24,438 nt of DNA from a virus, in the IMG/VR virus record IMGVR_UViG_3300042391_000182, positions 1-24,438 of that record; one strand, 5' to 3'. Numbering within the stretch: position 1 is the stretch's first letter; every line of letters begins with the position of its first letter. Below, piece by piece: positions 3,095 through 7,135 of the stretch. Below the pieces are notes generated by a model. That model had not been told where the DNA came from and searched no databases. It saw only the letters and a program-made list of their open reading frames with translations. Made by a program: the position numbers and the translations under genes.

Positions 3095-3890
3095 TTTGTA
3101 ATTTCTCGTAATCTTGATTTAATTCACAACCTAAATATTTTCTTCCATGTTGTAAGGCTACTTGTGCTGTAGTTCCACTACCTATAAATGGATCAAGCAC
3201 AATGTCATTCGCTCTACTTCCAGCAAGTATGCAGGGTTCAATCAAAGCAGGTGGAAATGTAGCAAAGTGCGCTCCTTTGTATGGACGAGTAGCAACTGAC
3301 CAAACACTACGACGATTTCTTGTTTCTCTTGCACCTATTTTTGCAATATTTTTTTGAGCACTTCCATTAACATAAATTCCTAAATTTGAATGTCTATGTG
3401 TTTTATTTCCCGGACCTTCTGGTCTGTTAGCCGTTTCCTGCATTGCTTCACTATCAAAAAAATATTTATTTGATTTTGATAATAAAAAAATATACTCATG
3501 CGCTTTAGTGCAACGATCTTTTACTGATTCAGGCATTGGATTTGGTTTATGCCAGATAATGTCTTGTCGAAGCACCCAACCATCTGATTGCAGAGCAAGT
3601 GCAAGCCGCCAAGGAACTCCTATTAATTGTTTACCACTTCCGTAACTATCTCCAATGTTTAGCCAAAGTGTTCCGTCATCAGCTAATACATCCCATACAC
3701 ATCGAAACACTTCAACCATTGCATTGATATATTCCTCTGAAGTTTCTTCTAATCCTATTTGCCCTTCATGACCATAATCACGCAAACCATAATAAGGAGG
3801 ACTTGTCACGCAAGTTTGAACTTTAATACCATCAGAAGCCCATTTACGCATTGTTTCTCGGCAATCACCAAATTCAATTTTATTAAACAC
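3057..3890 (-). CDS. Beta-class DNA adenine/cytosine-N4 methyltransferase
   Basis: A 277-residue DNA methyltransferase of the N6-adenine/N4-cytosine family. The catalytic motif IV is TSPPYYGLRDYG (residues 29-40), placed before the SAM-binding motif DPFIGSGTT near the C-terminus (about 233-241), so the order is that of the beta class. SPPY favours N4-cytosine methylation but does not exclude adenine. The start is put at GTG 3890, giving MFNKIEFGDCRE, because GGAG lies 6 bases upstream; a TTG at 3911 would be longer but has poor signals. It overlaps the helicase stop by 8 bases. No restriction enzyme is adjacent, so it is an orphan enzyme, probably guarding phage DNA from host restriction. Target site unknown. 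Confidence 0.9.
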   Translation of the reverse strand: MFNKIEFGDCRETMRKWASDGIKVQTCVTSPPYYGLRDYGHEGQIGLEETSEEYINAMVEVFRCVWDVLADDGTLWLNIGDSYGSGKQLIGVPWRLALALQSDGWVLRQDIIWHKPNPMPESVKDRCTKAHEYIFLLSKSNKYFFDSEAMQETANRPEGPGNKTHRHSNLGIYVNGSAQKNIAKIGARETRNRRSVWSVATRPYKGAHFATFPPALIEPCILAGSRANDIVLDPFIGSGTTAQVALQHGRKYLGCELNQDYEKLQNERLRQNSFQLV

Positions 3891-4884
3891 GAAACGCTCC
3901 ACGATTATCAAAGTCTATAGGCTGACCACCTTGTACCTCAATGAACTGCTGGCTGTTGTGCTCGAAATACAATCCGTAAAACTCCTCAGCTTCACCGTTC
4001 CTCTGCTTTTGGCACATTAGAAACATATCTGGCTGCTTCTCGTCATAATCCTCATTGTTCCTACGTGCGTTCTCTTTCTTCTTATTACGCCAGACTAAGA
4101 ACACGTTATCCACCTGATCCGCAATTGATCCTGAGCCTTTTAAATCAGTCTTGCCAGGCTGTATCTCCTCAGATTGCAACTTACGTATATGGTGAACCAG
4201 ATGAATGTGTACGTTATGGTCTCTCGCTAATGCACAAAGTTCGTCAACAAAGGATTTCTGCTCGTTTAACGCATCCTCACCGCTAACGCACTTCATTAAT
4301 GAGTCAATAAAGATATGCTGTATCCCTAACTCAACCGCACAGTACCGAGCCATTGCTATCGTTTTCTGAGCAGTCGTAGAACCTTGCTGATCGTAAAGAT
4401 ATAGATTCTCGTCAATGAATCCTGTGAATCTACCCAATAACGACCGTATGTAGCCTTCCTTGTCATGCGTTAACGGAATACTAATATTCTCACCAGCAAA
4501 CTGCCTGAGCATCCTAACAATGGTAGTTACAGGTTTCATTTCATAACTAGCAATGCAAACCTTTAAGTTCTGCTTAATCAATCCTAGTGCTATCTGTCCT
4601 GTTACAAGGCTCTTGCCGCCTCCGTTCCCACCTGCGTATACGGTAACCTCACCTAGCCTGAATTTAACGTCTGCGTGAGTCTTAGACCACGGCATAACAG
4701 CATCTGCTGTCTGCTCTGGGTCGATATAGTTCTGGTATATCTCATCAAGCCAGGTAGCCGCAGATTTAACCTGTGCCGATAAGTCTGTGCCTTTGAGATA
4801 TTTGTCTACATCAATGTTCTGAGACTTGATGATATTGCGATCATCGTAAAGTCGTTCCGCTATTGCAAAAATATTATCCGACAT
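3883..4884 (-). CDS. DnaB/gp4-like replicative helicase (RecA-fold ATPase)
   Basis: A 333-residue hexameric-helicase-type ATPase. The Walker A motif GGNGGGKS is at residues 85-92, followed by the typical LVTGQIALGLIKQNLKV segment. ASYEMKP (about 112) resembles the DnaB/gp4 H1a region, IFIDSLMK (about 195) is Walker B, and HLVHHIRK (about 230) matches the H3 motif. KGSGSIADQVDNVFLVWRN fits the H4 region. It would unwind the fork 5' to 3' as in DnaB and T7 gp4. The N-terminal 65 residues are not a recognisable primase; the zinc-finger primase fragment is encoded by the gene immediately before it, overlapping by 11 bases. Together they resemble a gp4 protein split in two. Confidence 0.9.
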   Translation of the reverse strand: MSDNIFAIAERLYDDRNIIKSQNIDVDKYLKGTDLSAQVKSAATWLDEIYQNYIDPEQTADAVMPWSKTHADVKFRLGEVTVYAGGNGGGKSLVTGQIALGLIKQNLKVCIASYEMKPVTTIVRMLRQFAGENISIPLTHDKEGYIRSLLGRFTGFIDENLYLYDQQGSTTAQKTIAMARYCAVELGIQHIFIDSLMKCVSGEDALNEQKSFVDELCALARDHNVHIHLVHHIRKLQSEEIQPGKTDLKGSGSIADQVDNVFLVWRNKKKENARRNNEDYDEKQPDMFLMCQKQRNGEAEEFYGLYFEHNSQQFIEVQGGQPIDFDNRGAFRV

Positions 4885-5284
4885 ATTTAACTGCCTCCAT
4901 TATTCGATCGTGTGCCATTTTCATCCTAGTTTTATCGACCTCTGATAGTTTCTCGCCCTTTGACATTGAATAAGCTGCTACCGATACAACCAAAGCCTCA
5001 AATTCAATAACTCTAAGCAAGTCTGAAGCATAATATCTTTTCTTAACTGGAGGCAAGTCTTTATTTACGTTAGGGAACAGATCGTTTATATCCATTCCTA
5101 TTGCACCCATGATTTCTTGGATGCTGCAATTAGCAAAGCATTTCAATAAGATACGACCATCATCAACTTCTCTTATCGCTAAGCTAGGAGACTTATCCGT
5201 ATGAGCAGGACAGCAAGCTGTGTACGCTCCGTTACGACCTTTAACCTTCTCTAGGCGGCTGAGTATGTTCTCAATCATTTCCAC
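4874..5284 (-). CDS. CHC2 zinc-finger primase-like protein lacking TOPRIM
   Basis: A 136-residue protein whose first half is a primase-type zinc-binding domain. CPAH (C25, H28) and CFANC (C49, C53) form the CHC2 ligand set, followed by the usual helix SIQEIMGAIGMDINDLFP. In primases this domain selects the priming site on single-stranded DNA. The catalytic TOPRIM domain does not follow. The second half is a helical segment (YYASDLLRVIEFEALVVSVA...) seen in stand-alone phage versions. The gene overlaps the helicase downstream by 11 bases and the DUF1376 gene upstream by 10, suggesting coupled expression of a replication complex. Where the primer-synthesising domain comes from (host DnaG or a gene outside the window) is unknown. 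Confidence 0.85.
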   Translation of the reverse strand: MEMIENILSRLEKVKGRNGAYTACCPAHTDKSPSLAIREVDDGRILLKCFANCSIQEIMGAIGMDINDLFPNVNKDLPPVKKRYYASDLLRVIEFEALVVSVAAYSMSKGEKLSEVDKTRMKMAHDRIMEAVKYVG

Positions 5285-5934
5285 CCCATCAATGGCTTTT
5301 GAGTAGCTCCAGCTATTTCATCTTCCCATCGTTTAGCATTAAGCCAGGTAGCCGCATGAGGAATAAACTGTTGTTCTCGTTCAGATAACTTTTGATCTTT
5401 TACAGCTTTTGTAATTTTTGCAATAAGTTCATCGTTAGGTTTAATCTTTATCCAAGCCTTCTTAGCATTTTCTTTAGCTGTCTTTTTTGGATAGACTTTC
5501 CAAAACGTCTCAAACTGATCGATAGATATATGGTTATTGGTTATTGGTTTATGGTTAGTGGTTAGGGTTATTTTGGGTTCGGCTTGGGTTAGGCTTGGGT
5601 TAGCAGTGGGTTTGGTCTGGCTTCTTGCTGGTCTGCCGCCTAGCTTTCCATTAGCTTTCTGCTTCTCTAAGTATGAATGATAAGCACGTATTTCTTCATC
5701 TGCTCTACTATTCTTATATCCAAATTCAGTATATTCAAACATATCATTCAACACAGATTGAATAATCTCTGAACCCAAACGTAACCTACGGGATACCCAT
5801 TGGATATCGATAGGTATTGGTTTTTCTGTGTCGTAATACATATCAAGCAAACGCCTGTATGCTAAATCTTCGTCATTGCTTAAATGGGATGTGGCAGACA
5901 AATAGTCGCCAATATGGAATTGGTAGTAATGCAT
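5275..5934 (-). CDS. DUF1376 (YdaU-type) phage replication protein
   Basis: A 219-residue protein with an N-terminal DUF1376 domain (about residues 3-95: YYQFHIGDYLSATSHLSNDE, LAYRRLLDMYYDTEKPIP, a winged-helix-like fold). Then comes a Thr/Asn/Pro-rich linker (about 103-137), then a C-terminal FWKVYPKKTAKENAKKAW module with HAATWLNAKRWEDE, found in phage replication and helicase-loading proteins. It probably recognises the origin and brings in the helicase encoded two genes downstream. The linker DNA contains two tandem repeat arrays, listed separately. The ATG at 5934 has a GAGGTATATATG context (GAGG 6 bases upstream). No membrane or secretion signals. Confidence 0.85.
   Translation of the reverse strand: MHYYQFHIGDYLSATSHLSNDEDLAYRRLLDMYYDTEKPIPIDIQWVSRRLRLGSEIIQSVLNDMFEYTEFGYKNSRADEEIRAYHSYLEKQKANGKLGGRPARSQTKPTANPSLTQAEPKITLTTNHKPITNNHISIDQFETFWKVYPKKTAKENAKKAWIKIKPNDELIAKITKAVKDQKLSEREQQFIPHAATWLNAKRWEDEIAGATQKPLMGWK
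5531..5572. repeat. 7-bp tandem repeats inside the replication gene
   Basis: On the plus strand TGGTTAT, TGGTTAT, TGGTTTA, TGGTTAG and TGGTTAG follow each other at exactly 7-base steps from 5531 to 5565, then a shifted GGTTA (5566-5570). They encode part of the Thr/Asn/Pro linker of the DUF1376 protein. They sit immediately beside the 11-bp array and beside a T-rich stretch at 5470-5490, so they may be binding sites or the melting side of an origin. Confidence 0.75.
5574..5617. repeat. 11-bp iteron-like tandem repeats; candidate replication origin
   Basis: TGGGTT recurs at 5574, 5585, 5596 and 5607, a strict 11-base step: TGGGTTCGGCT, TGGGTTAGGCT, TGGGTTAGCAG, TGGGTTTGGTC. A weaker TGGCTTCTTGC follows at 5618. 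Eleven bases is about one turn of B-DNA, so each copy would face the same side of the helix, as iterons do. Phage lambda carries its origin iterons within its replication gene O, which makes the location suggestive. A purely protein-level cause (a low-complexity linker) remains possible because the period is not a multiple of three. Confidence 0.62.
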
Positions 5935-5959
5935 ATATACCTCACGTTATCGGTAATCG

Positions 5960-6022
5960 TTACAAAATAGGTGGTATGGCAGGACGGTAACGAATCGTCT
6001 TTTCAGGAGCTACCCTAGCCAT
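5960..6022 (-). CDS. Possible 20-aa peptide
   Basis: ATG at 6022 to TAA at 5960 encodes MARVAPEKTIRYRPAIPPIL. The composition looks like protein, but there is only a weak GGA directly before the ATG. A further short frame, TTG 6069 to TAG 6010 (LQKARRLDIVVNDLPEWLG), overlaps its start. Either could be a translated microprotein or chance. The remaining bases from 5935 to 6047 hold no other gene that I can see. Confidence 0.22.
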   Translation of the reverse strand: MARVAPEKTIRYRPAIPPIL

Positions 6023-6047
6023 TCCGGTAAATCATTTACGACTATAT

Positions 6048-6212
6048 CTAAACGCCTCGCTTTTTGCAAGTCCGGCAAATATTAGAATTTACAAACTGTA
6101 TTGCAGATCGTGATCTTTTGCAACTTGAGCATATTTGCGTATTAAAGTTATATTTCGTTTTCTCTTTGGAATCTGACGTTTGATCTACAGTTTTTAAATT
6201 GACGTCTTTCAA
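6048..6212 (-). CDS. 54-aa zinc-finger protein
   Basis: A small gene starting at TTG 6212, preceded by AGAGG with an 8-base gap, and ending at TAG 6048. The C-terminal half is a four-cysteine zinc module, CSSC (C28, C31) and CRTC (C46, C49), with basic residues (KRSR, KKRG) around it. The N-terminal half is Lys/Asp/Thr-rich and overlaps the end of the winged-helix gene by 65 bases in another frame. No ATG exists in this frame between the upstream TAA and the finger, so the TTG is the best start. CX2C-x14-CX2C with flanking basic residues suggests nucleic-acid binding. Function unknown. Confidence 0.62.
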   Translation of the reverse strand: MKDVNLKTVDQTSDSKEKTKYNFNTQICSSCKRSRSAIQFVNSNICRTCKKRGV

Positions 6213-6528
6213 TTGGTTGACCTCTAGGGCTTATAGTAGGTGGAAATGTTTTAAGTGGCGTAAAAGGTACAGCTTCTCTAGGCGGCACTAAGTTCTTAGG
6301 TTCAGCCTTATACGCTGGCTTTTCCTGCTCAACTGAGAAGAATACATTACCTATTTGGTTAATGCACTTAAATCTTGCTAATTTCCTAAGCTCGCTAGTG
6401 ATAGCCCATACGTTAAGAAAACCCATAGTTCCATACGTTTTAGCTATGTGTTCAGCAGTAATACCACCTGATTCGTTGACGATTTGCAACATTCTTTCTC
6501 TGCGACTGTCTTTTCTTGGCTGATACAT
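6148..6528 (-). CDS. Winged-helix-like protein at the divergent promoter
   Basis: A 126-residue protein not matched to a known family. Residues 9-68 (RRERMLQIVNESGGITAEHI, then AKTYG, NVWAITSELRKLARFKCI, then GNVFFSV) have the rhythm of a winged helix: three helices followed by a beta wing. The second half is Pro-rich and basic, probably disordered. It is the first gene of the leftward early operon and starts about 90 bases from the rightward early operon, a position often held by a regulator or replication accessory protein. ATG at 6528 lacks a clear Shine-Dalgarno (only A/T-rich sequence upstream). Its 3' end overlaps the zinc-finger gene. Confidence 0.65.
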   Translation of the reverse strand: MYQPRKDSRRERMLQIVNESGGITAEHIAKTYGTMGFLNVWAITSELRKLARFKCINQIGNVFFSVEQEKPAYKAEPKNLVPPREAVPFTPLKTFPPTISPRGQPIERRQFKNCRSNVRFQRENEI

Positions 6529-6548
6529 AAATTTATTTTAAAAAGTTG

Positions 6549-6578
6549 TTGACATACAAGATTGTGATGCGTTATAGT
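6549..6578 (+). promoter_or_regulatory. Sigma70-type early promoter
   Basis: TTGACA (6549-6554), an 18-base spacer and TATAGT (6573-6578) form a near-consensus sigma70 promoter facing the plus-strand operon that begins at 6622. ATTGTG (6561-6566) in the spacer and CACAAT (6594-6599) after the -10 form an inverted repeat that could be an operator. No equally good promoter is seen for the leftward gene. Confidence 0.78.
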
Positions 6579-6605
6579 TTCTTCACTGCAACACACAATA
6601 TTAAT

Positions 6606-6619
6606 TCACTAGGAGAATA
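6606..6619 (+). repeat. Repeated translation leader (copy 1)
   Basis: TCACTAGGAGAATA precedes the ATG at 6622 and is exactly repeated at 6814-6827 before the ATG at 6830. Both contain the Shine-Dalgarno. A second leader pair, AGGAATCTAA, occurs at 7583-7592 and 8243-8252 before the ERF and SSB-tailed genes. Confidence 0.7.
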
Positions 6620-6621
6620 AA

Positions 6622-6813
6622 ATGAACAGCGAAAAAATAGTAGAACTTTTTTTAGATGGTGCATATCTTGAAGATTGTAAATTGCATCATCCTAGCTTTC
6701 GCAAAGGCTGGAGAAAAATGTCTAGTGGAAATATTTCATTTTTAGCTGCTAAAAATAAACTTCAAAAAATTGGTAAGCGCGTGCAATATCAAGACAGAAA
6801 ATATTTTTTGTAA
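6622..6813 (+). CDS. Small basic protein, unknown
   Basis: First gene of the rightward early operon, 63 residues, with AGGAG 6 bases before the ATG. It starts MNSEKIVELFLDGAYLEDCK and continues with a basic helical stretch, then KLQKIGKRVQYQDRKYF. No family is recognised, and there are no membrane segments. First genes after a strong early phage promoter are often small host-takeover or anti-defence proteins, but nothing in the sequence shows that here. The 14 bases before its ATG recur before the next gene. Confidence 0.65.
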   Translation: MNSEKIVELFLDGAYLEDCKLHHPSFRKGWRKMSSGNISFLAAKNKLQKIGKRVQYQDRKYFL

Positions 6814-6827
6814 TCACTAGGAGAATA
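6814..6827 (+). repeat. Repeated translation leader (copy 2)
   Basis: Second perfect copy of the 14-base leader TCACTAGGAGAATA, two bases before the ATG at 6830. Confidence 0.7.
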
Positions 6828-6829
6828 CT

Positions 6830-7135
6830 ATGAATCGCTACGAATTTGAACAAGATGCACTGCAATCCATATTAAATAAAGAACCTGATGACTTTACGCA
6901 AGACTTTACTGATGGTGAGATGCGTGAATCATTGAATGAATTTTTAATAATATGGGCTACCCATAGGCACGATCCCGTAGTTATGGCAGCAGGTATTAGC
7001 ACTCACATAGCGCGCATGATTTCGTACCAAGCTAAGTATTCAAAGAGAGTAGACGACACATTGACTACTAGTGATCTGTGGAACTACAACCAAGATATGA
7101 AAACTCAGCAGTGGGAGAATCGCCATGACAAGTAA
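6830..7135 (+). CDS. Hypothetical early protein
   Basis: A 101-residue acidic, helical protein. It has an acidic N-terminal third (NKEPDDFTQDFTDGEMRESL) and a middle with FLIIWATHRHDPVVMAAGIS. No known family is recognised. A Shine-Dalgarno AGGAG lies 7 bases before the ATG, in the repeated leader TCACTAGGAGAATA. Its stop overlaps the next start by 11 bases, so it is coupled to that gene. Confidence 0.65.
   Translation: MNRYEFEQDALQSILNKEPDDFTQDFTDGEMRESLNEFLIIWATHRHDPVVMAAGISTHIARMISYQAKYSKRVDDTLTTSDLWNYNQDMKTQQWENRHDK

Follow-up and report, generated by a model that had tools for sequence, protein, structure and literature searches.

Examination of a 24,438-bp virus record from IMG/VR, the whole of which is referred to here as the window, points to a probable replication origin of bipartite organization, which occupies positions 5516-5623 and lies inside the gene for its own putative initiator, a protein of the DUF1376 family. 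Two arrays of short tandem repeats, one of 7-bp and the other of 11-bp units, follow each other within the coding region of this gene. The letter-for-letter retention of these repeats in at least 100 distinct genes of bacterial viruses, although other spellings of the protein are possible, suggests that replication starts within the gene. A search of the literature recovered no paper linking DUF1376 to an origin and no experiments on this origin, and we regard the segment as a well-supported candidate for an origin of a generally known kind, with a two-array layout that is apparently undescribed.

The candidate initiator gene (5275-5934, minus strand) codes for 219 aa, and its membership in DUF1376 is apparent from a Pfam match that exceeds the curated cut-off (PF07120, aa 2-82, E 1.4e-21, 77.1 bits against 30.1). 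The PHROG profile 'primosomal protein' extends across aa 1-207 (2.5e-45), and two families labelled 'replication initiation protein', phrog_270 and phrog_9474, match at about aa 94-210. With regard to a possible homology with lambda O, the only Pfam family reported for the protein is DUF1376. The protein can be divided into a winged-helix-like N-terminal DUF1376 domain (aa 2-82), a disordered linker coded by the repeats (aa ~98-133) and a C-terminal domain (aa ~134-210). In the AlphaFold2 model the N-domain is predicted with confidence, the linker across the arrays is of low confidence (residues 103-110, 116-123 and 125-128) and the C-domain is helical. Structural matches for residues 5-89 are winged helices with Z up to 6.4, among them the plasmid initiator domain 4pt7 (Z 5.0); as none has a Z above 8, the predicted winged-helix fold, common in DNA-binding initiators, is a modest assignment. 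Foldseek gave weak matches alone (E 0.75 or worse), and no sequence relatives with solved structures were found.

Downstream on the same strand lie a DnaG-type zinc-ribbon protein of 136 aa (4874-5284; Pfam, PHROG) and a DnaB-like replicative helicase (3883-4884; PF03796, 4.4e-18, with PHROGs for primase/helicase and DnaB-like proteins), in agreement with the preliminary description made from the letters of the window, which had placed a primase fragment and a helicase after the DUF1376 gene. Pfam and PHROG found no TOPRIM domain in the zinc-ribbon protein; no catalytic primase part was seen among the genes scanned, and the zinc-ribbon protein adjoins the separate helicase. The same profiles identified both an ERF gene and a gene for a single-strand binding protein. 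Upstream of the DUF1376 gene an ORF of 126 aa (6148-6528) has no Pfam or PHROG match, although the region 6626-5834 is well kept in relatives. Leader DNA resembling TCACTAGGAGAATA occurs in two copies (6607-6626 and 6816-6835), each directly 5' of the start codon of one of two small consecutive genes, with matches of 20-24 bp in the relatives L004, L005 and L011. The whole window had no megablast match among phage records.

On the gene (minus) strand the heptad array comprises five perfect AACCANN units between 5531 and 5563 (AACCACT, AACCATA, AACCAAT, AACCAAT, AACCA), whose AACCA cores start at 5531, 5538, 5545, 5552 and 5559; this candidate strand-opening or single-strand element corresponds to the five 7-base units that had been noticed earlier. 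Next to it is an 11-bp phased array (5564-5612, minus strand) of putative double-strand initiator sites, in which AACCCA recurs at 5607, 5596, 5585 and 5574 in 11-bp steps, followed after a 10-bp step by AACCCT at 5564. The four 11-bp-spaced units had been correctly placed before, but that list was incomplete in omitting the unit at 5564; an outer unit described as weaker is indeed present at 5618-5623 as a degenerate AAGCCA (TGGCTT on the other strand, one mismatch), at an end of the array where relatives of the same class (A) often have a full ACCCA unit. Similarly, the T-rich left flank of the preliminary description is borne out as AT-rich DNA that borders directly on the C-terminal end of the heptads, albeit over a short stretch of 15 bp (5516-5530), a candidate start of melting. 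Beyond the 11-bp array, codons at 5624-5652 (minus strand) specify NGKLGGRPAR, the segment after the DUF1376 core.

The arrays are also recovered by repeat-finding procedures, with TRF reporting a period of 7 at 5531-5572 and of 11 at 5573-5603 and 5585-5612, and a repeat search giving an 11-bp family spaced 11, 11 and 11. Four perfect consecutive AACCANN units occur at a single site in the window and in 0/100 dinucleotide shuffles. When codons were permuted synonymously within the gene, which leaves the protein unchanged, five heptads in a row arose in 20/20,000 permutations, at least three ACCC pairs spaced by 11 bp in 21/20,000, and the observed count of 5-mers at lag 11 was reached in 1/20,000. 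Neither strand of the array has an ordinary hairpin, as scored by a tool that does not evaluate quadruplexes.

To place these arrays in the wider family we collected relatives by protein searches, which yielded 80 viral and 4 genomic loci and, after removal of redundancy, 49 genes. One of the six seeds used, NHKPITNN, contained the motif and favoured array-bearing relatives, a bias that a DNA-only scan of IMG/VR and a family profile search in Burkholderiales were meant to offset. Within the heptad motif of the 49 genes codon choice is frozen, whereas the same residues use alternative codons freely elsewhere: Asn is AAC in 50/50 cases against 277/596 outside the motif, Pro is CCA in 50/50 against 186/482 and Thr is ACC in 48/51 against 234/627, while heptad His is always CAT (37/37) and Lys always AAA (33/33). 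The mean heptad run in these genes is 4.67, compared with 1.10 under synonymous shuffling. As 7 is not a multiple of 3, successive units fall in each of the three reading frames in turn, and constraint at every codon position speaks for the DNA rather than the protein. In an enlarged set of relatives arrays have 3 to 9 units, five being commonest, and AACCA is present in 499/503 units, a descriptive figure because the AACCA pattern itself had served to select part of this set. Immediately behind the heptads, a 15-bp slot averages 71% AT across the family against 65% under synonymous permutation (z=8.2).

Scanning IMG/VR at the DNA level for AACCANNAACCANNAACCANNAACCA (four AACCANN units) returned at least 120 stretches, with 121 arrays among the matches listed. 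An ORF with a DUF1376-type N-domain holds 111 of these 121 listed arrays, which ties the heptad array near-exclusively to the DUF1376 gene family; in four of the other ten the DUF1376 gene is cut by the contig end, bringing the tally to 115/121 among the matches listed, and the leftover listed arrays look like simple tandem repeats or lie in unrelated ORFs. The possibility raised at the outset that relatives might conserve the linker and lose the DNA spacing is the opposite of what is seen, in that both the unit and the spacing of 7 bp hardly vary and the motif codons are frozen. This conservation of unit and spacing and the DNA-only scan lend support to the earlier reading of an in-gene origin, with the DUF1376 protein as its presumed binder. 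A variant heptad, ACCCANN in place of AACCANN, was observed in L009-L012, L048, L050-L052 and L065; these genes have 11-bp units similar to class C, and their C-terminal domain resembles that of the window or its neighbours.

The 11-bp spacing likewise proved to be general at the DNA level in the comparison of relatives that the preliminary description had proposed. The 80 bp preceding the heptads, taken over 97 non-redundant array-bearing genes, contain 694 matching 4-mers at period 11, where within-gene synonymous permutation predicts 127 (z=37), with harmonics at 22 bp (z=25.5) and 33 bp (z=13.6). The order of elements is fixed in relatives, namely the 11-bp array, the heptads and the AT-rich 15 bp, and the last 11-bp unit mostly abuts the heptads in fixed register. 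The sequence of the 11-bp unit falls into a few classes: AACCC (A), GTTCAACG (B), AACGCAATGC (C), ATCAGATCTGA (D), CCCCTA (E) and a few others. The repeats described at first as a single set of iterons are real, but they behave as two elements, a widely shared 7-bp one and a variable, class-specific 11-bp one.

The peptide after the DUF1376 core varies along with these classes, being NGKxGGRPxK in class A, AGKASAxRR in B, and of the ARW, ANQIR and GAAKRW types in C, D and E, respectively. Peptide class and 11-bp class coincide in 77 of the 80 assigned genes, a descriptive count given that the regular expressions for both were written after inspection of the data, and 27 changes of 11-bp class are counted on the core tree. 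A k-mer/alignment test that dispenses with hand-made classes gave, when the core was controlled for, a partial correlation of 0.54 between the similarity of segments and that of arrays, a value attained in 0/999 permutations; the corresponding figure for core and array given the segment is -0.005, and the simple correlation of C-terminus with array is -0.001. With the segment cut back beyond the coding of the array the partial correlation fell from 0.52 to 0.24, 0.15 and 0.12 (permutations at most 0.09), so that array-coded residues account for some of its original strength; its direction holds and its size is modest. Since shared descent of a contiguous block can give the same signal, the association supports recognition without proving it, and the class A segment NGKLGGRPAR is a candidate specificity segment that may read the 11-bp units.

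Comparison of the window with its relatives revealed module joints. Five loci (L002-L005 and L007) share about 80-92% identity with the window in the part that runs from 5563 across the C-terminus, the primase part and the helicase. Their alignment to the window resumes between about 6600 and 5834, and no similarity to it is detectable from 5834 to 5563. The same pattern of exchange is found in L009, L010 and L012, with joints at 5565 and 5904, and a similar one in L011, with a joint at 5574; these joint-bearing loci may represent three independent events rather than nine. The reverse arrangement is displayed by L006 and L013, which are homologous from 6025 to 5534/5535 and then continue into a different C-terminus. 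As judged from these alignments, the joints of both types of exchange fall at the edges of the heptads, the N-domain and the 11-bp array moving as one cassette and the C-terminus moving with the helicase.

Several other explanations for the arrays were weighed. It is barely credible that the repeats merely mirror a low-complexity Asn/Pro/Thr linker maintained by selection on the protein: translation of the heptads does yield a recurring peptide, N-[HQ]-x-P-x-T-x, but synonymous codons are frozen in the motif and free outside it, and the 11-bp periodicity is largely lost upon synonymous permutation. These codon and permutation tests refute a protein-level cause, unless the codon bias had some other origin, and agree with the earlier remark that a duplicated amino-acid motif does not simply account for the arrays. 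A structured element formed by the G-rich strand with its TGGTT and TGGGTT runs, such as a two-layer G-quadruplex, would fit the four or more GG runs per array and the nearly G-free complementary strand; yet the A/T positions on either side vary as little as the GG itself, arrays with no more than three units exist (L213) and ordinary hairpins are missing from both strands, making this proposal very improbable. The use of heptad edges by both kinds of module swap, together with the presence of ERF and single-strand binding protein genes, might mean that the heptads are kept chiefly as a recombination junction between N- and C-terminal modules, for instance via an Erf-type phage annealing protein. 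We consider this quite unlikely, in that it leaves unexplained both the adjacent 11-bp-phased array of varying sequence and the invariance of the unit in phages without shared flanks, and use as a junction may itself result from conservation.

The arrays could, alternatively, be binding sites through which the DUF1376 protein exerts control (autoregulation, copy control or incompatibility), with replication starting elsewhere in the genome. Conservation at the DNA level and the matching of classes speak for recognition and not for initiation as such, and the gene is unmarked by GC skew. Against such a role, which we hold to be improbable, the arrays lie deep in the coding region, about 320-400 bp past the start codon and far from the usual position of a promoter, a short AT-rich stretch abuts them, and helicase and primase parts adjoin the gene. 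Cumulative GC skew, suggested at first as a check, proved uninformative: in the window it turns at ~5000-6600, where gene orientation changes, and therefore cannot be read as an origin signal, and among eight phages with a DUF1376 gene there was no consistent extremum at the gene. With the eight phages inconsistent and effects of gene orientation dominant, a skew extremum at the array was dropped as a mark of the origin.

For the replication origin that we favour, the following mechanism can be envisaged. The DUF1376 protein, by way of its winged-helix domain and the basic segment after it, would most likely bind the 11-bp units, and because these are one helical turn apart the bound subunits would form a row along a single face of the duplex. 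The resulting nucleoprotein complex would abut the heptads, which are followed by the short AT-rich stretch; in these two elements the strands may open, the heptads then being held single-stranded in a sequence-specific manner. A spacing of 7 bp is tight for winged-helix proteins side by side on duplex DNA, and on this reasoning a single-strand role of the heptads is favoured. Recruitment of the adjacent DnaB-like helicase, together with the zinc-ribbon primase part, could then fall to the C-terminal domain.

The lambda origin, located within gene O (PMC6022878) and comprising four O-bound iterons of 19 bp (PMC3985674), offers the nearest parallel for an origin inside an initiator gene. In both cases direct repeats in the coding region of the initiator (here a candidate, with repeats kept at the DNA level) lie near helicase-loading genes and are flanked by an N-terminal DNA-binding part and a C-terminal partner part. 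The systems differ in the protein family, DUF1376 here, and in that two arrays of 11-bp and 7-bp units take the place of four long iterons, with the 7-bp unit common to many phages and the 11-bp unit varying by class. A second parallel is provided by origins that combine double-strand initiator sites with short single-strand repeats, such as DnaA boxes with the DnaA-trio, ori2/RctB of V. cholerae and iteron plasmids with DUE repeats; the DnaA-trio, RctB and plasmid Rep systems hold these repeats single-stranded (PMC10797057). They resemble the present case in having winged-helix initiators and a layout of double-strand sites, very short repeats and AT-rich DNA, which here takes the form of short tandem repeats between the putative double-strand sites of the 11-bp array and the AT-rich stretch. 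The repeat unit is 7 nt here against 3, 6 or 13 in those origins, the element lies inside a phage gene, and its single-strand binding is putative.

Beyond the viral sample, a profile search of 150 Burkholderiales genomes detected 17 DUF1376 loci, of which about a third have AACCANN and the rest variants or none, such as CACCANN in L210 and L212 and a 6-bp CCCANN run in L215; 11-bp-phased repeats, judged by eye, are present in many of the 17. Short tandem units in the heptad slot of L210, L212, L215 and L221 include NTAAAGAA (7/8 bp). The full array is found in three named isolates, Methylophilaceae phage P19250A, Vibrio phage 1.183.O and Thalassomonas phage BA3; it lies at about 32.48 kb in P19250A and at about 31.76 kb in BA3. 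In the Vibrio phage (L229, MG592549.1) a 'CRISPR spacer' is annotated at 27814-27843, in the DUF1376 gene and adjoining the heptads, which is probably a repeat-finder artefact of the arrays. The Rac prophage of E. coli has an active origin, oriJ (PMC3945230). Its DUF1376 protein YdaU resembles the phage cases in carrying a class B peptide, AGKASVQARR, beside GTTCAA/GTTGAA repeats that have a DNA-level period of 12 bp (0/300 permutations as strong), and differs in that AACCANN heptads are absent from ydaU; no exact placement of oriJ with respect to ydaU was found in the papers examined.

It is possible, albeit at somewhat less than even chances, that the DUF1376 proteins form a large family of phage initiators, each of which carries its own origin in two parts. 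A specificity cassette of core, segment and 11-bp array, open to exchange, would be combined with a shared AACCANN opening element recognized as a single strand, and a fixed joint would connect these to swappable helicase-recruiting C-modules, the whole being the phage counterpart of the DnaA-trio/RctB element. So far DUF1376 has been annotated in many phages and prophages as being of unknown function or, loosely, as a 'primosomal protein'. If the origin reading is true, both the role of DUF1376 as a replication initiator and the position of the origin would be readable from the sequence of any array-bearing phage. The 11-bp classes would constitute a readable set of protein-DNA specificities, and the 7-bp element a compact, testable strand-opening sequence. 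Furthermore, the exchange of cassettes at fixed joints would explain the mosaicism of replication modules and a possible incompatibility of origins between co-infecting phages.
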